The position numbers and the translations under genes were made by a program. Shown here piece by piece: positions 8,893-62,302 of a stretch of 64,000 nt of DNA. Under the pieces are notes generated by a model. The model was given only the letters and a program-made list of their open reading frames with translations, was not told the origin of the DNA and searched no databases. The stretch is from an uncultured Bacteroidales bacterium (GTDB taxonomy: Bacteria; Bacteroidota; Bacteroidia; Bacteroidales; F082): the NCBI GenBank assembly GCA_947303085.1, contig CAMYXP010000001.1, positions 620,001 to 684,000 on the forward strand, in the 5' to 3' direction. Positions within the stretch are counted from its first letter, which is position 1. Each line of letters starts with the position of its first letter.

Positions 8893-9933
8893 ATGATCCT
8901 TTATAAAAACGATATTGCCAAATTAAAAGAAATAATCTCTTCTCACACCAAAACATTTTTGCTATTGGATGAGAACTCGGAAAAATATTGCCTTCAATAT
9001 TTCAATACTATTGATTTATTAAAATCAAATACTATAAAGATTGTAATCCCGGCAGGAGAGCAGCACAAAAACATTGAAACTGTTCAATATATCTGGTCGC
9101 AACTTGTTGAAAATCACGCTGATAGAAAGTCGTTGCTGATTAATATTGGTGGCGGCATGGTGACCGACATAGGAGGTTTTGCTGCTTCATGTTATCAACG
9201 TGGTATCGATTTTATCAACATTCCGACCACGCTTCTGGGCATGATAGATGCAGCTGTCGGCGGCAAAACCGGTGTTGATTTTCAAGGACTTAAAAATCAA
9301 ATCGGAGTATTCTCGCAACCACTTGCAGTGGTGATTTTGTTCGAGTTTCTTGAAACCCTGCCGAAAAGAGAACTGTTATCGGGTTTGGCGGAGATTATCA
9401 AATACGGCTTCATTGTTGACAAAACTTTCTTGGAAGCGAAACTTACTTATCCTATTTATCCTGAATATATCGAGAAAGCCATTGAGGCTAAAGACGAAAT
9501 TACACTTAGCGACACCACTGAGCAGGGTAGACGTAAGATTTTGAACTTCGGTCACACTGTCGGGCATGCCATTGAAACGTATCTTATTGATAATCATCAG
9601 GAAATGCGTCATGGGGAAGGGGTGGCGCTCGGAATGGTTTCGGCCTTGTATCTTTCTGAAAAATATTGTAATCTTGATCATAAAATAACTTTATATTATA
9701 AAGATATTTATGCTAAAAATTTCAATAGATTTGATTTGAATGATATTTCTGTCGGTGAGTTGCTTGAGATAATGCGTCACGACAAGAAAAATCAGGATGG
9801 AGATATCAGATTTGTGTTGATTTCTGATTTGGAAAAACCTGTTTATGATGTTGTGGTGAATCCAGAGGATATTGTTGATTCAATTAACTATATCGTTGAT
9901 TATCTGAGAGATGAAAATTATTGGGGCAAATAA
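8893..9933 (+). CDS. aroB: 3-dehydroquinate synthase
   Basis: NIGGGMVTDIGGFAASCYQRGIDFINIPTTLLGMIDAAVGGKTGVDF, NFGHTVGHAIE, HGEGVALGM. Confidence 0.95.
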   Translation: MILYKNDIAKLKEIISSHTKTFLLLDENSEKYCLQYFNTIDLLKSNTIKIVIPAGEQHKNIETVQYIWSQLVENHADRKSLLINIGGGMVTDIGGFAASCYQRGIDFINIPTTLLGMIDAAVGGKTGVDFQGLKNQIGVFSQPLAVVILFEFLETLPKRELLSGLAEIIKYGFIVDKTFLEAKLTYPIYPEYIEKAIEAKDEITLSDTTEQGRRKILNFGHTVGHAIETYLIDNHQEMRHGEGVALGMVSALYLSEKYCNLDHKITLYYKDIYAKNFNRFDLNDISVGELLEIMRHDKKNQDGDIRFVLISDLEKPVYDVVVNPEDIVDSINYIVDYLRDENYWGK

Positions 9934-11113
9934 AACGTTTGACGTCACCGTCGACCTTGTGGGTAGCAAGAGCGAATCAAACCGCGCCCTGATGATTGGC
10001 TATTACGGCGGCTTCAACCCCCGCATCAAAAACCTTTCAGTATCCGACGACACCGTCTTATTAAAAAATATCCTTGCTTCACTTTCTTATCCATCTTATC
10101 CTCCTTATCCATCTTATCCTAAAATAATAGATTGTTCTAACGTCGGCACCGTCCTGCGTTTTCTCTTGACAGCCTTGGCATTTCGTGACGGCGATTACAT
10201 CCTCACCGGTTCCGACCGCATGCTGCAACGTCCTGTTGGCGACCTCGTTGATGCCTTGCGCGTAATGGGTGCTAACATCGAATACATGGAGCAGGAGGGA
10301 TTCCCACCATTACGCATTCATGGTAAAAATCCTGTGGGGACAGACCGCGTCTATTCACCACAATGCATACACGTTGATATATCCCGCAGTTCGCAATTCG
10401 CCTCGTCGTTGTTATTGGCCAAACCATCGCATTTGCATCTCGACGGCGACCTGTCGTCTCTCCCTTATATCGACATGACCATCGACATCATGTGCCATTT
10501 TTCGGCATATGTTAAACGTGAGGGCCGTGACATCTTTGTGCGACCGTCTGAATATCAAGATGTTGAATATACCGTCGAGTCCGATTGGACCTGCGCCTCG
10601 TATTGGTACGAGATCGTGGCGTTCAGCGAGAATGGCCGCGCGCGTTTGCGTAACCTGCATCTCGATTCAAAACAAGGCGACGCCATTGTCGCAAAATGGT
10701 TCGAACAATTCGGTGTACAATCCGTTCAGGATGGTAACGATATAATCATTGAAAAGAATCATTCGATTTTTTTCAATGATTTATCATTCGATTTCATCAA
10801 CAACCCCGACCTGTACCCGACCATCGCCGCCACCTGTGCCGGATTGAACGTCGAAGGTCATTTCACGGGTCTTCGTAATCTCGTGCATAAGGAGTCAGAT
10901 CGGGTGGCGGCGATGACCATGGAGTTATCCCGTGTAGGGACAGACCGCGTCTGTCCGCCGATTTTCGATTCTCATAACGACCACCGCATCGCCATGGCCC
11001 TCGCGCCTCTGGCAATGAAAATCGGCGCCATTGAAATCAATAACGCCGATGTCGTTTCAAAATCGTATCCAAATTTCTGGGAGGAATTTCAAAAAATTAT
11101 TCCCAGCCGTTAG
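9911..11113 (+). CDS. aroA: 3-phosphoshikimate 1-carboxyvinyltransferase (EPSP synthase), carrying repeat-derived segments
   Basis: VGSKSESNRALMI, NVGTVLRFLLTALA, HKESDRVAAM, NDHRIAMALAPLA. Confidence 0.92.
   Translation: MKIIGANKTFDVTVDLVGSKSESNRALMIGYYGGFNPRIKNLSVSDDTVLLKNILASLSYPSYPPYPSYPKIIDCSNVGTVLRFLLTALAFRDGDYILTGSDRMLQRPVGDLVDALRVMGANIEYMEQEGFPPLRIHGKNPVGTDRVYSPQCIHVDISRSSQFASSLLLAKPSHLHLDGDLSSLPYIDMTIDIMCHFSAYVKREGRDIFVRPSEYQDVEYTVESDWTCASYWYEIVAFSENGRARLRNLHLDSKQGDAIVAKWFEQFGVQSVQDGNDIIIEKNHSIFFNDLSFDFINNPDLYPTIAATCAGLNVEGHFTGLRNLVHKESDRVAAMTMELSRVGTDRVCPPIFDSHNDHRIAMALAPLAMKIGAIEINNADVVSKSYPNFWEEFQKIIPSR
10084..10120 (+). repeat. (CTTATCCNT)n repeat inside aroA, encoding SYPSYPPYPSYP
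   Basis: ttcttatccatcttatcctccttatccatcttatcct; related tracts in intergenic DNA at 45834-45864 and 48926-48963. Confidence 0.85.
10334..10356 (+). repeat. Dispersed repeat, copy 1 in aroA (encodes VGTDRV)
   Basis: gtggggacagaccgcgtctattc; 20/23 identical to the copy at 10934. Confidence 0.85.
10934..10956 (+). repeat. Palindromic dispersed repeat, copy 2 in aroA (encodes VGTDRVCP)
   Basis: gtagGGACAGAC-cgc-GTCTGTCC, a perfect 8-bp inverted repeat with 3-nt loop. Confidence 0.88.
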
Positions 11114-19793: not shown

Positions 19794-19809
19794 CATAGTT
19801 TAGAGTTTT

Positions 19810-19855
19810 GAGTTTGGAGTTTGAAGTTGTCTAACTCCAAACTCCGTACTTCAAA
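19810..19855. repeat. Inverted repeat in intergenic AACTC/GAGTT-rich sequence
   Basis: GAGTTTGGAGTT (19810-19821) and AACTCCAAACTC (19833-19844), a perfect 12-bp inverted repeat. Confidence 0.8.
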
Positions 19856-19867
19856 CTTCAAACTTTT

Positions 19868-24112: not shown

Positions 24113-24151
24113 CGTCATTTCGAGCGAAACGAAGTGGAGTCGAGAAATCTC
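24113..24151. repeat. Dispersed repeat, TCATTTCGAGCGAA...GAGAAATCTC family
   Basis: cgtcatttcgagcgaaacgaagtggagtcgagaaatctc; related copies at 38706 and 52709 (inverted). Confidence 0.85.
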
Positions 24152-29411: not shown

Positions 29412-32290
29412 TGAAAAAATTATATTTTTCGATTGTTGTTTTGTTGATTTGTTTTGTGGTCAAGGCTCAGACCGATGAGGATCGTTGGGTTGACTCTGTT
29501 TACAACTCGTTGACGATGGAGCAGCGTGTAGGGCAGCTTATAAACGTGAGGGCTAACTTGCCAAATAAGGCGTATTTCGTTGAGGTTCAAGAACTTATCG
29601 AGAAATATAACATCGGGGGCGTGACATTCTTCCGCACTGATGCCGAGCCTTTGCTGAGGCAGGTGAACCAGTGGCAGTCGTTGGCGCAGACGCCATTGAT
29701 GGTTGGCATCGACGGCGAGTGGGGCTTGGGAATGCGTCTCAACGACGGCATCTCATATCCGTATCAGATGACGCTTGGAGCCATTCAGAATCAACAACTT
29801 ATAGGCGAGATGGGAGCTCAGATCGCCGAACAATGCCGCCGTATCGGTATCAACATCGATTTTGCGCCTGACATCGACGTGAACAACGAGCCGAAAAACC
29901 CGGTCATCGGGATGCGTAGCTTCGGCGAGAACCCGAAAGCGGTGGCGGAACGCGGTACTCAGTACGCTCTCGGCCTTCAGAACAACGGCGTGCTACCTAC
30001 AATGAAGCATTTCCCAGGTCATGGCGACACGAAAAACGACTCGCACGAGACACTCCCGAAGGTGGATAAGAAGCTGAAAGAACTCAAAAAGACAGAATTC
30101 TATCCTTTCGAATACCTAATAAATAAAGGTGTTGCCGGCGCTATGGTGGGACATCTTTACATGCCGGCGATTGAACCTGTGAAAAACCTCTCGTCGTCGA
30201 TTTCGAAGAACGTGGTGACTGGACTTCTGAAAGATGAGATGGGCTTCGACGGCATCATTTTCAGCGACGCGATGGAGATGAAAGGCGCCTACCAGGGCAT
30301 ACATCCTGATGACGTCGGGCTGAGTGCGCTTTTGGCTGGCGTTGACGTGATACTTATGCCGATAAATCCGGAAAAAACCATTCAAAATATTGTAAATCAA
30401 TTGGATAACGTAGAGGTTGCAAAGAGGGTGGAGGAGAGCTGCAAGAAAGTTTTGAAGTATAAATACCGTCTCGGAATCGCTAAATATCAGGCGCAGTCAG
30501 AGATGTCGGTTGACAATGATTTACATCAGGCGAAATATTATAATTTGAGACAAAGGCTTTATAATGAGGCAGTTACGATGATAAGAAACAACAAAGAAGT
30601 GCTACCTCTGACGAAAGACGAGAAGATAGCGGTTGTTACAATCGGGACGACCGACAATGGGGCGAAACGTTTAGCTGGTGAAGGCTATGACGTGGAGTCG
30701 TTTGTCGTTGACAAAAATATTTCTAAGTCAGCTAAAGCAAAGATTATCAATGATTTAAAGAGATTCAAACTCGTTGTTGTCAATGTTCAAAACACTTCGA
30801 TTTATGCTACTAAAAATTTCGGAATAACCGATGAAACCGTTGATTTTGTTAAGACTTTAAGCAAAAACAACAATATCGTTTTCAACCTGTTTGCTTGTCC
30901 GTATGCCTTGAACAAATTCGATTTCAAGAAGTCGCCATTGGCTATCATTATTGGCTATGAAGACACGCAATGTGCAGTAAATGCTGTGGTTGACGTGATG
31001 GTTGGAAATATCAACCCGACAGGTAAGCTGCCTGTCACGATTAGCAGGAAATTCAAGATGGGCGATGGCTTGAGTTTTGAAGGCATGCTGACACCAGAAA
31101 CTTTGTCAGTGGAACTCATTGAAAATGAATATATTAGCAGGGTTGACTCAATAGCCTTGAATGGCATCGAGATTGGCGCTTATCCTGGATGTCAGATTTT
31201 GGCGATGAAAGACGGCAAAGTTATCTACGACAAGTGTTTCGGGCATTTCACTTACGACGGCGACCACGAGGTGCAGCCCGACGATGTTTACGATATCGCG
31301 TCGCTGACGAAGGTTTTTGCCACCACTTTTGCCATCATGAAGCTTTACGACAACGGCAAAATCAGTCTTGAAAGCAAGCTGAGCGATTATTTTCCATATC
31401 TGAAAAATACCGATAAAGGAGATGTAAAGTTGATAGAGATTATGACCCATCAGGCAGGGCTAACTGCTTGGATACCAATATATAAGAACACGATGAAGAA
31501 TGGCAAGCCCGATAATGATTTGTATAGAAAAAACATTGACGAGGATCATACTGTTCGTGTTGCGAAGGACATGTACATCTCGCAGGAATACAAGTTTGAC
31601 ATTGTCGGGACGGTGATTGGGTCGGAGACTTGTGAGAAGAAGTATAAATACAGCGATTTGGGCTTTTATTTCTTGCCGAAAATTGTGGAGATGGTGACGA
31701 ATATGCCGTTTGAGAGGTATCTGGAGGAGAATTTCTACAAGCCTCTGAATCTCAATCATATTTATTATAAACCATTGAGACACATTGAAATAGATAAGAT
31801 TGCCCCGACCGAAAACGATACCTGTTTCAGGATGCAGCTGTTGCGGGGCGATGTTCACGACCAGGCTGCCGCATTGATGGGCGGTGTGGCTGGTCATGCC
31901 GGACTCTTCGCCAACGCGCGCGACCTCGCCGTGATGATGCAGCTGCTTCTGGATGAGGGATATGTCAACAACAGGCAGTTTTTGTCGAGCTACACGATTA
32001 AAAAATTCACGTCGGCACCGTTCAAAGACAATATGAACCGTCGCGGCATAGGCTTCGACAAGCCTGAAGTCGACCCGACGGTGCCTTATTACACGCCGGC
32101 GAAACAGTCGTCGATGAAGAGCTTCGGACATACAGGATTTACTGGCACTTTCGCATGGGCCGACCCTGAAAACGGTCTCATCGTCATATTCCTGTCGAAC
32201 AGGGTTTACCCTGATGCGAGTAATAACAAGCTGTCGCAAAACAACATCAGAACTGAGATACATGAAATGTTTTATGAGGCAGTGAAATAG
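29411..32290 (+). CDS. GH3 beta-N-acetylhexosaminidase fused to a serine hydrolase (beta-lactamase family)
   Basis: GH3: FAPDIDVNNEPKNPVIGMRSFGENP, KHFPGHGDTKNDSHETLP, FSDAMEMKGAY. Serine hydrolase: YDIASLTKVFATTFA (SxxK), YSDLGFYFL, FGHTGFTGT. Confidence 0.93.
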   Translation: MKKLYFSIVVLLICFVVKAQTDEDRWVDSVYNSLTMEQRVGQLINVRANLPNKAYFVEVQELIEKYNIGGVTFFRTDAEPLLRQVNQWQSLAQTPLMVGIDGEWGLGMRLNDGISYPYQMTLGAIQNQQLIGEMGAQIAEQCRRIGINIDFAPDIDVNNEPKNPVIGMRSFGENPKAVAERGTQYALGLQNNGVLPTMKHFPGHGDTKNDSHETLPKVDKKLKELKKTEFYPFEYLINKGVAGAMVGHLYMPAIEPVKNLSSSISKNVVTGLLKDEMGFDGIIFSDAMEMKGAYQGIHPDDVGLSALLAGVDVILMPINPEKTIQNIVNQLDNVEVAKRVEESCKKVLKYKYRLGIAKYQAQSEMSVDNDLHQAKYYNLRQRLYNEAVTMIRNNKEVLPLTKDEKIAVVTIGTTDNGAKRLAGEGYDVESFVVDKNISKSAKAKIINDLKRFKLVVVNVQNTSIYATKNFGITDETVDFVKTLSKNNNIVFNLFACPYALNKFDFKKSPLAIIIGYEDTQCAVNAVVDVMVGNINPTGKLPVTISRKFKMGDGLSFEGMLTPETLSVELIENEYISRVDSIALNGIEIGAYPGCQILAMKDGKVIYDKCFGHFTYDGDHEVQPDDVYDIASLTKVFATTFAIMKLYDNGKISLESKLSDYFPYLKNTDKGDVKLIEIMTHQAGLTAWIPIYKNTMKNGKPDNDLYRKNIDEDHTVRVAKDMYISQEYKFDIVGTVIGSETCEKKYKYSDLGFYFLPKIVEMVTNMPFERYLEENFYKPLNLNHIYYKPLRHIEIDKIAPTENDTCFRMQLLRGDVHDQAAALMGGVAGHAGLFANARDLAVMMQLLLDEGYVNNRQFLSSYTIKKFTSAPFKDNMNRRGIGFDKPEVDPTVPYYTPAKQSSMKSFGHTGFTGTFAWADPENGLIVIFLSNRVYPDASNNKLSQNNIRTEIHEMFYEAVK

Positions 32291-32294
32291 TTGA

Positions 32295-32345
32295 GAGTTT
32301 AGAGTGTAGAGTTTAGAGTAGTTTTGAAGTTTATAGTGGAAAGTA
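32295..32345. repeat. 51-bp dispersed repeat, copy 1
   Basis: gagtttagagtgtagagtttagagtagttttgaagtttatagtggaaagta; 46/51 identical to the reverse complement of 62165-62215. Confidence 0.88.
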
Positions 32346-38734: not shown

Positions 38735-38746
38735 CACCTATAATTG

Positions 38747-38780
38747 TAGAGACGTCATATTATGGCGTCTCTATTTTTTT
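38747..38780 (+). terminator. Hairpin terminator after gcvP
   Basis: TAGAGACG (38747-38754) / CGTCTCTA (38766-38773) then T run. Confidence 0.75.
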
Positions 38781-45833: not shown

Positions 45834-45864
45834 ACTTATCCATCTTATCTTTCTTATCCCTCTT
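45834..45864. repeat. (CTTATCCNT)n tract, intergenic
   Basis: aaaacttatccatcttatctttcttatccct. Confidence 0.75.
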
Positions 45865-45937
45865 TAAACAAAGAGTGGAGCATGTCTTTCCACACTCCAC
45901 TCTAACGTCTAAGGTCTAAAGACTAAAGTCTAAAGTC

Positions 45938-47878
45938 TTACTTAACAACAACCTTTGTTGTCTGTTTGCCTGCGTTCACGAAGTAGATACCTGCCTCGAG
46001 GTTGTTAACGCGGACTTCTGAAACGTTTTCGTATGTCTTAACCAACTGACCAACAGTGTTGTAGATGTTGACGTCTGATGCGTTGCTGAGCTGGACTGTG
46101 AATGAACCCTTTGCTGGGTTAGGATAAACATTCATAGTTGTTTCAACTGTCATGACTGTCTCGTCTGTACCCATCTTGTGGAGGTAAACTTTAGCTGCAT
46201 GGTAGTAGTTGTTGTCTGGCACCGATTCGTCCTCTTGTACGAAAGTACCGATTTCACCGTCGCTCTGATAGCAGAGCCAGAGGTATTCACCTTCGCTGTC
46301 ATTATAGAGGTAAGGAATAACCTGGCAGTAAACATTCTCTTCATAGTCATTCATGAAGTCGGTCAAAACTTGTTTTGGAAGTCTCCATGTGTTACCACCG
46401 TCTTCTGACATGTTGAAGAATAATCTGTAGTATTGTCCGCTATAATCGTCGTTGTAATATTTGTTTACGTCACCGGCGACCATTGACCAGAATGCGAAGA
46501 TTCTGTTGCCTTCCATGTGCATTGTTGCAAATGCGCAAATACCACTGTTATATTTACCGTGAGTGTCTTTTGTATCATTTACCCAGTGATATTCAGCTGG
46601 CCAGTTTTCCTGATCATTCCAATCCAAAACGTTACCGTCATCATCAATGGCGTGGATAAGACCAATTAACTCAGGAAGTGTCTCGTGTTCTTGATCGCTC
46701 CAGTATGGTTGTGATGCATAGATGTCTTCAAACATATATGTTGAGTCCATAATGAATGGTTCGCCAATATTACCGATACCGCCTTCGCATAATGCGTTCT
46801 TTGGAAGAATCTCGCTCCAGTAGCCGATACCACCAATACCTGCATAGTATGAGCCTGAACCTGCTACGCCTGTTGAACCGTTGAATTCATAAACAATGTG
46901 GAGGTTGTCGTTTGCGTCAAATGCGGCGTTGGTCCAACGTGGATACATGAACCATGTGTCTGTGAAGTCGCCGTTGATGTTCGGGTGCTGATAGAATACT
47001 CTTTCGCTCCATGTTGCGCCGTTGTCTTCTGAAATGACAAGTTTGCCGTCGCTCCATGCATTGTTCAAAATGAATGATACGCGGTTTGGCTTCTCTGGGT
47101 TGTAAAGCATGAAGTAGCAAATGTTTGAACCGCCGTCTGTCATGTGATCAGCATCGAGGTTCGGAATTGTTTCATACTGATGTGTCCATGTTCCATTTGC
47201 ATACTGATAGAAAATGATTGGGTCTTTGCCTGGACCATCGCCTATTGTAGCTTCGCTGTTTGTAATGAGAACGTTGATGATGTCGAGGTTCTCACCTGAG
47301 CACTGTACCACTGGCCATACTGGGTCAACACCTGTTGTCACAGGAAGTGTGATGCCTTCACCGAAGTCGCGGTTGCCCTGGCGGAAGTCTTCAACGATGA
47401 AAATTCTTGCGTCAGATGCACAGTGAGCTGCAACGACGAGACCGTTCTCTTTGTAACGTGCGATTGAACCGAAACCGGTCTTCACACCCTCAACGCGGGT
47501 CTCTGTGAACTCCCATTCACCAACTGCCGGATCCCAAATGGCGAGACCAGTACCACGGTCTGAATAGCTGGCGTTTGTTGCCTGTGTGTAGCACATGACT
47601 GCATATCCGTCTGGCCATACTGCAACGTAGTTTCTTGCACCCTGGTTCGACTGCCAGTCGTAGAATGTCTGGCTCATCTCAATAGGCTCTTCTGCATCTC
47701 TTGCGATAATGCTTCTTGTTGCAACAACAGGAAGATCGACATTCTGACCTTCAAATCCTCTGAAAGTCTGTGCCTGTGCGGATTTTACGTCCTTAGCTGT
47801 TTGTTTCATGCTCTTTACCTGAGCAAATCCTGTAACGGCAATTGCCATCACCAGTGCTAATGTAAAAACTTTCTTCAT
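45938..47878 (-). CDS. T9SS-secreted protein, sialidase/BNR-like propeller with C-terminal sorting domain
   Basis: Signal peptide; BNR-like SEDNGATWSERVF and SEDGGNTWRLPKQ; C-term MNVYPNPAKGSFTVQLSNASDVNIYNTVGQLVKTYENVSEVRVNNLEAGIYFVNAGKQTTKVVVK. Confidence 0.88.
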   Translation of the reverse strand: MKKVFTLALVMAIAVTGFAQVKSMKQTAKDVKSAQAQTFRGFEGQNVDLPVVATRSIIARDAEEPIEMSQTFYDWQSNQGARNYVAVWPDGYAVMCYTQATNASYSDRGTGLAIWDPAVGEWEFTETRVEGVKTGFGSIARYKENGLVVAAHCASDARIFIVEDFRQGNRDFGEGITLPVTTGVDPVWPVVQCSGENLDIINVLITNSEATIGDGPGKDPIIFYQYANGTWTHQYETIPNLDADHMTDGGSNICYFMLYNPEKPNRVSFILNNAWSDGKLVISEDNGATWSERVFYQHPNINGDFTDTWFMYPRWTNAAFDANDNLHIVYEFNGSTGVAGSGSYYAGIGGIGYWSEILPKNALCEGGIGNIGEPFIMDSTYMFEDIYASQPYWSDQEHETLPELIGLIHAIDDDGNVLDWNDQENWPAEYHWVNDTKDTHGKYNSGICAFATMHMEGNRIFAFWSMVAGDVNKYYNDDYSGQYYRLFFNMSEDGGNTWRLPKQVLTDFMNDYEENVYCQVIPYLYNDSEGEYLWLCYQSDGEIGTFVQEDESVPDNNYYHAAKVYLHKMGTDETVMTVETTMNVYPNPAKGSFTVQLSNASDVNIYNTVGQLVKTYENVSEVRVNNLEAGIYFVNAGKQTTKVVVK

Positions 47879-47943: not shown

Positions 47944-48085
47944 CACAATTTTTTCAAACCACCAACAAAAAAAACAAAAAAAATCAAAAAAACTCTCACA
48001 CCTTATTATAATAATTGATAAACCTCCCCAAATCCCCAACCACAAAACTTTCAACTTTAAACTTTCAACTTTAAACTAAAATTTG

Positions 48086-48925: not shown

Positions 48926-48963
48926 CCCTTATCCTTCTTATCCTCACTATCCTTCTTATCCTA
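48926..48963. repeat. (CTTATCCNT)n tract, intergenic
   Basis: cccttatccttcttatcctcactatccttcttatccta. Confidence 0.75.
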
Positions 48964-62133: not shown

Positions 62134-62164
62134 CAATTTTTTTTTATATGATGTTTTATAAATC

Positions 62165-62215
62165 AACTTTCCACTTTAAACTTTAAAACAACTCTACACT
62201 CTACACTCTAAACTC
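62165..62215. repeat. 51-bp dispersed repeat, copy 2 (inverted relative to copy 1)
   Basis: aactttccactttaaactttaaaacaactctacactctacactctaaactc; reverse complement matches 32295-32345 at 46/51. Confidence 0.88.
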
Positions 62216-62302
62216 TAAACTGTAAAAAGATAAGGAGCTCGATTTTCATCAAGCCCCGTTATCGAAACAAAGTATGTGTGGTATGTGGTATGTTTAAAAT
62301 TA

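Follow-up and report, generated by a model that had tools for sequence, protein, structure and literature searches.

The EPSP synthase gene and its three repeat-derived segments

We analysed a stretch of DNA of 64,000 nucleotides (the window) that carries aroA, directly preceded by an aroB-like ORF (Table 1). The product was identified as an EPSP synthase by family profile, by alignment with solved EPSP synthases and by fold, the best Foldseek match being the E. coli enzyme (3fjx, TM 0.83). Across 30 AroA sequences, SKSxSNR, R107, SSQ, D300, N323, K327, R331, DHR and K384 were invariant; the family profile, fold and catalytic motifs of this AroA are intact. Its AlphaFold model had a mean pLDDT of 84.8 and fell below 50 only at residues 61–64 and 142–148.

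An initial annotation, made from the letters of the window alone, had proposed that aroA absorbed three repeat-derived segments. Re-reading the sequence and its translation recovered all three in place. The first reads TCTTATCCATCTTATCCTCCTTATCCATCTTATCCT, which translates as SYPSYPPYPSYP, and was classified by TRF as a 9/18-bp tandem array with a 100% match at period 18. The other two are copies of GTRGGGACAGACCGCGTCT, namely GTGGGGACAGACCGCGTCTATTC (10334) and GTAGGGACAGACCGCGTCTGTCC (10934), which are identical at 20 of 23 positions and each give VGTDRV when read in frame (residues 142–147 and 342–347). Copy 2 is a clean hairpin with 8-bp arms (GGACAGAC/GTCTGTCC) and a 3-nt loop, whereas the right arm of copy 1 has decayed. 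In the AlphaFold model, all three segments fall between secondary-structure elements. The initial annotation had placed the first two in loops, in agreement with the two stretches of lowest model confidence. The third segment (residues 342–347) lies between helix 331–339 and strand 351–353 of the model; the remark that it stands in place of a variable stretch before the NDHR motif was right, because alignment gaps make the E. coli enzyme ~14 residues longer there.

Table 1. Features of the window and host proteins of coding palindromes elsewhere in the genome
Feature	Coordinates	Strand	Encoded peptide or product	Remarks
aroA, EPSP synthase, host gene of the segments	9911..11113	+	400 aa	PF00275 E=2.9e-58; Foldseek; upstream neighbour
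(CTTATCCNT)4 tandem tract, AroA loop 1	10085..10120	+	SYPSYPPYPSYP, residues 59–70	
GTAG palindrome copy 1, AroA loop 2	10334..10356	+	VGTDRVYS, residues 142–149	right arm decayed
Imperfect inverted repeat, AroA loop 5	10744..10781	+	EKNHSIFFNDL	arm ~17, 1 mismatch, loop 4
GTAG palindrome copy 2, AroA loop 6 before NDHR motif	10934..10956	+	VGTDRVCP, residues 342–349	intact
Intergenic GTAGAGAC..GTCTCTA(C) palindrome, then T run	38746..38774	+		between convergent ORFs
CTTATCC 9-mer tract	45835..45864	+		outside convincing gene; doubtful 115-aa ORF
CTTATCC 9-mer tract, non-coding	about 48927/48928..48962	+		no ORF
4-alpha-glucanotransferase (MalQ, GH77)			VETMCTSS	insert inside Pfam-matched domain
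AnmK			KTMRTSS	insert inside Pfam-matched domain
RecD-like helicase			VETRLITS	
alpha-L-rhamnosidase			VETRHGTS	insert inside PF05592
LD-carboxypeptidase (Peptidase_S66)			VETHCRAS	insert between its two domains
Glycosyltransferase			VETHGRAS	
Transglutaminase-domain protein				more than one palindrome copy
PG_1098-like protein				two palindrome copies

Two dispersed repeat families

That the segments are repeat-derived was borne out by the dispersal of both repeat families over the genome (2.3 Mb). Sites were located by pattern matching, stretch by stretch, which under-counts degenerate copies; ORFs were called mechanically, without gene annotation. The palindromes consist of GTAGRGAC, a variable palindromic core and GTCYCTAC, and are 22–30 bp long, typically about 28 bp. 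GTAGRGAC..GTCY gave 90 strand matches, as opposed to 19 for the reversed pattern, and these collapsed to 58–60 sites at unrelated loci; GTAGAGACG..CGTCTC gave 60 strand matches and the reversed pattern none. GTAG is present at one stem end, a finding that is partly circular since the pattern selected for GTAG. Most copies of the GTAGGGACACACCGCGTGTGTCCG subfamily have GTAG at one end only, and many GTAGAGAC copies are tagged at both ends. While the ends are fixed, the cores are palindromic yet highly varied (ATGTGCACAT, TGCCATGGCG, TTTCCCGAAA, CGATTAATCG, CACGGCCGTG and CAAAATTTTG, as well as AAGGCATGCCTT in a GGGAC-type palindrome). The same few cores (TGCCATGGCG, TTTCCTGAAA, ATGTGCACAT and CACGGCCGTG) are met again at loci with no relation to one another and in more than one species.

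A search of the genome for further VGTDRV-type copies, as the initial annotation had suggested, yielded one intergenic copy on C2 and one in another ORF on C3 that reads VGTDHVCP. Together with both aroA copies, these represent the AGACCGCGTCT subfamily, which is rare in this genome. Elsewhere in the genus, its symmetric counterpart, ACACACCGCGTGTGT, is common. Across the genus, this subtype is also read repeatedly as GHTRCVPT, within a segment of the form 'V(D)xxGRVxVS..GMxxGVYVLRL' similar to a type IX secretion sorting domain (L069, L074, L096, L100, L119, L131, L139, L140 and L146). ACACACCGCGTGTGT was additionally seen in three contigs of Rodentibacter (Pasteurellaceae), and the GTAGGGACACACCGCGTGTGTCC palindrome in Rodentibacter contigs L102, L125 and L132; the occurrence of GTAGGGACACACCGCGTGTGTCC in a genus of Pasteurellaceae implies either convergence or cross-phylum transfer.

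Globally, GTAGAGACG N6-12 CGTCTC was found in each of the 100 genomes from the genus of the window (g1, gut/rumen Bacteroidales) but in only 4 of 74 genomes from 15 sister genera, with 2 to about 175 strand matches of GTAGAGACG..CGTCTC per g1 genome and close to none for the reversed control. The named relatives with the pattern were mostly uncultured Bacteroidales from ruminants, plus Ca. Limimorpha equi and bacterium F082. Many of these are metagenome assemblies, which would be in keeping with an assembly or binning artefact. However, the motif is shorter than a read, it occurs in 100 of 100 congeners with a near-zero control and essential frames stay open, so that we consider an artefact extremely improbable.

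The 36 intergenic copies were located between tandem ORFs (21), convergent ORFs (13) or divergent ORFs (1), with 1 left unassigned. A run of at least five T or A (A representing the other strand) adjoined 22 of these 36 copies, compared with 1 of 15 CDS copies. Their anatomy suggests that the intergenic palindromes probably act as transcription-terminator or 3′-end hairpins.

For the CTTATCC 9-mers, we obtained 55 matches in the genome and 0 for the reversed pattern; the tract was found at about 30–35 loci. The window alone has 8 CTTATCCNTCTTATCC-like matches, where 0.09 would be expected. Among 22 distinct loci examined, 12 were outside ORFs; the 10 within ORFs mostly encode KDKEDK-type linkers. 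The two further tracts in the window to which the initial annotation had pointed were found at 45835, with a doubtful 115-aa ORF, and at ~48927, with no ORF. The window also has 7-bp tandem arrays (AGTTTGG, AACTTCA, TCTAAAG, AAACTTT and AACTCTA, at 19797–19865, 32289–32319, 45901–45938, 48045–48077 and 62159–62226), and these many heptamer arrays beside the 9-bp arrays point to a general heptamer/nonamer repeat habit of the genome. A further dispersed element, beginning GTCATTTCGA, was noted at positions 24114, 38707 and 52737 (−) of the window.

Coding copies favour one frame and one length

Of the 58–60 palindrome sites, 22 were in ORFs of at least 100 aa, and about a third of the strict copies were in ORFs. 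Their host proteins were identified by Pfam (Table 1). Nearly all coding copies are in frame and give V(E/G)T....S. All 18 CDS copies with both ends recognisable were 28 bp long, compared with 19 of 40 copies elsewhere (P=6e-5, or P=0.002 once the two 27-bp aroA copies are counted). Similarly, 18 of 20 coding copies, those in aroA included, used the GTA-GAG-AC frame, with a second frame also open (P=4e-4). Such a length and frame bias would be expected if coding copies had to pass a filter for a single class of frame and length, or if copying took place within such a class.

Loop occupants differ between sister species

We compared the AroA loops of 18 near relatives, the species of the window included. 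At 71–84% identity, the loops of these enzymes held different palindromes, tandem repeats or nothing, and their residues differed accordingly. Loop 1 had KTRFIASH, VETMCTSS, TNPTNPTNP, GINGINGL or a short loop instead of SYPSYPPYPSYP; loop 6 had VKTFPETS, VETFPETS, VQTCHGAS or VKTHGRAS at the site of VGTDRVCP; VETRHGTS was found among the loop contents as well. The SYP tract of loop 1 was common to several sisters at one to six units, with other repeats in the remainder, which is how an in-frame 9-bp tandem repeat behaves. One relative (G116) has palindromes in five AroA loops. In loop 2, it shares the flank HGKNP with G000, but the one has VETFPETS where the other has VGTDRVYS. Overall, differing cores at the same site between conserved flanks were observed in AroA loops 1, 2, 3, 5 and 6. 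In loop 6 of G136 (L021), VKTHGRAS and VQTCHGAS stand side by side, and close relatives have only one or the other.

In loop 5 of the AroA encoded in the window, the imperfect inverted repeat (Table 1) overlaps an 11–12-bp direct repeat. Compared with the GTAG family, it was not a member; it is possibly another absorbed palindrome or a locally generated one, for example via template switching.

These alignments bear on the idea that the AroA peptides are conserved functional loop motifs and the DNA repeats coincidental. While AroA is essential and the frame is biased, which would speak for this idea, the sisters differ in the very residues concerned, and their DNA also turns up in intergenic regions and in proteins unrelated to AroA. 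Synonymous shuffling provided a further measure: the 18 near aroA genes have 13 hairpins where shuffling left 0.8, which rules out chance hairpins, whereas 20 genes from other genera have 1 (0.6 after shuffling) and the rest of the genus sample was also at chance level. Sister alignment, dispersed copies and hairpin shuffling thus rule out a conserved AroA motif, to which we give next to no credence. Conservation of the residues in close AroA homologues, or absence of the nucleotide motif from the rest of the genome, would have spoken against the initial annotation; homologues carry other repeats or nothing and both repeats are dispersed, so neither is the case. If anything, that annotation was too modest: the element is a superfamily with variable cores, present in many genes, whose loop occupant differs between sister species.

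In aroA of the best-supported sister pair (G120/G079, UFBoot 99), an identical GGAAGACAATTTGTAGAGACG is followed by GATGAGAATC in one and TTTCCTGAAA in the other, and then by CGTCTC. The same was seen in other proteins. For the LD-carboxypeptidase, GGAAAATGG-N6-GTAGAGAC-like ends are followed by differing cores in at least seven species, and MalQ has ATTTGCCANNN-GTAGAGA with three core types, besides empty versions in five species. AnmK and the helicase likewise have a fixed loop with differing occupants, and the helicase loop also takes in 9-mer tandem repeats. Fragments resembling the GTCATTTCGA element were noted in the helicase loop (L373 and L380), and in two further sister species (L290 and L293) the MalQ loop holds a longer in-frame element with GTCATTTCGA-like ends. 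Some core swaps could be gain and loss, as support for the inner nodes of the species tree is weak, and the species-level comparison did not recover exact insertion boundaries because filled and empty sites differ beyond the element.

Proposed origin and turnover of the loop segments

We consider it likely that the segments in AroA represent coding copies from two dispersed repeat families, a GTAG REP-like palindrome and a 9-bp tandem repeat, which are tolerated in loops and turn over with the frame preserved. Dispersal, in-frame position, loop location, frame and length bias, species-specific occupancy and in-register core differences are the established part of this explanation. The steps that would connect them are as follows. 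Outside genes, the palindromes lie downstream of genes, often next to a T run, and would serve there as terminator or 3′-end hairpins, and copies that fall into permissive surface loops with an open frame would survive as harmless V(E/G)T....S peptides. The occupant of a loop could then be lost, extended in tandem or receive the core of a different copy from the genome. In such an exchange, neither the GTAG/GTC ends nor the register would change, and the length would remain 28 bp, which also keeps the reading frame. We infer that the shared arms would anchor the exchange, by template switching or gene conversion and not by repeated excision and re-insertion, and that the host enzymes would remain active with their inserts.

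A bolder version, which we put forward tentatively and hold at somewhat below an even chance, is that fixed loops of housekeeping enzymes are landing pads, in which the core of a 28-bp palindrome would give way, at the same spot and with frame and register kept, to the core of another copy in the genome. Such a turnover would work like a cassette and independently of a transposase, and would diversify loops between sister species.

Alternatively, the loops could be filled by repeated independent transposition, with a tyrosine (HUH/RAYT-like) or other transposase excising and inserting GTAG palindromes and only tolerant loops being refilled. RAYT substrates are built in this way, with a GTAG tag joined to a palindrome (PMC3733652), and the loops also take unrelated repeats (9-mer tandems and GTCATTTCGA elements), so loop tolerance clearly matters. 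However, PF01797, the transposase domain of RAYTs, the textbook mobilisers of GTAG palindromes, had no match in the genome of the window (99.9% complete), and although 43 of 61 genomes searched have matches, 20 RAYT loci of relatives had no GTAGRGAC flanks within about 1.5 kb. Given the absence of PF01797 and these non-cognate flanks, we rejected RAYT as the mobiliser. Furthermore, identical register and flanks for differing cores would call for precise site preference. At the palindromes, flank matches equalled the shuffled expectation for 1–9 bp, so that there was no target-site duplication signal as in MITE-like transposition with target duplication. That no mobility machinery and no target duplication were found also counts against our main reading. 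Taken as a whole, we regard independent transposition as less likely than not, if still a serious competitor. RAYT-type genes of congeners (L203, L208 and L210) are flanked by palindromes of their own (GGCGGATGCTAG / GGGGATGATAGCTC), which are distinct from the GTAGRGAC family.

Palindromes might also be made and re-perfected locally by quasipalindrome template-switch mutation, their cores diverging in place without transfer between loci. This mutation class is known in E. coli (PMC7202029). It would account for a symmetric double change in MalQ, which has GAGAGGCAC..GTGCCTCTC in G085/G152 and GAGACGCAC..GTGCGTCTC elsewhere, and for partial arm duplications such as VETFPETSPETS. The same few cores are nevertheless found at unrelated loci and in several species, which local mutation would not yield. 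As the sole cause, local correction is largely refuted and we think it unlikely; it may have an additional role beside the exchange of cores between genomic copies.

Relation to known systems

So far, intragenic palindromes have been seen as accidents that are rare and tolerated. In the present case they occur throughout a genus, essential enzymes included, and close species (about 70–90% protein identity) supply filled, empty and differently filled versions of one and the same loop. Three questions thereby become testable: how such elements are mobilised in the absence of an obvious transposase, whether selfish DNA is neutral when translated, and at what rate it can rewrite loops. For annotation and structure modelling, there is also a warning here, as the loop differences of such proteins are repeat DNA and not by default adaptation. 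In the open-access literature, we found no description of in-register core exchange at fixed protein loops, nor of palindromic protein inserts in Bacteroidales or AroA.

The overall kind of element is nevertheless already known from intragenic REPs and the RPEs of Rickettsia. RPEs are palindromic repeats that are present in frame in genes for conserved proteins and are tolerated there (reviewed in PMC2229807); an RPE-bearing guanylate kinase retains enzymatic activity, as cited in the same review, and RPE-4 and RPE-6 are CGTC-tagged (PMC3733652). In-frame insertion into conserved proteins is thus shared, whereas RPEs are ~105–146 bp long and the elements described here are 22–30 bp, have GTAG ends, belong to another phylum and reach several copies per protein. 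PARCEL elements are likewise translated palindromic repeats, but they are described as intragenic tandem repeats of repeat proteins, in contrast to isolated inserts in housekeeping-enzyme loops (PMC2996958 for PARCEL). With REPIN/RAYT systems (PMC3116915, PMC2817692), the family has the anatomy of tag and hairpin in common; unlike in those systems, its genome has no RAYT, and where relatives have RAYTs, some of these adjoin palindromes of a different kind (GGCGGATGCTAG type).

The closest match is to GTAG-tagged REPs, which include intragenic copies (Di Nocera, De Gregorio and Rocco 2013, PMC3733652) and whose description the palindrome family fits, although that survey gives CGTC and not GTAG repeats for Bacteroidetes. 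Both are 20–40 bp palindromes with GTAG ends, with several core families per genome, mostly 3′ of tandem or convergent genes and with a minority in ORFs; in our case, the copies are mainly extragenic (21 tandem and 13 convergent of 36), with a large intragenic minority. In contrast to GTAG-tagged REPs, however, a single genome holds widely differing cores between its fixed GTAGRGAC/GTCYCTAC arms, the copies are often tagged at both ends, the genome lacks a RAYT, ORFs contain about a third of the strict copies and strongly favour one frame for them, and the cores at fixed protein sites differ between sister species.
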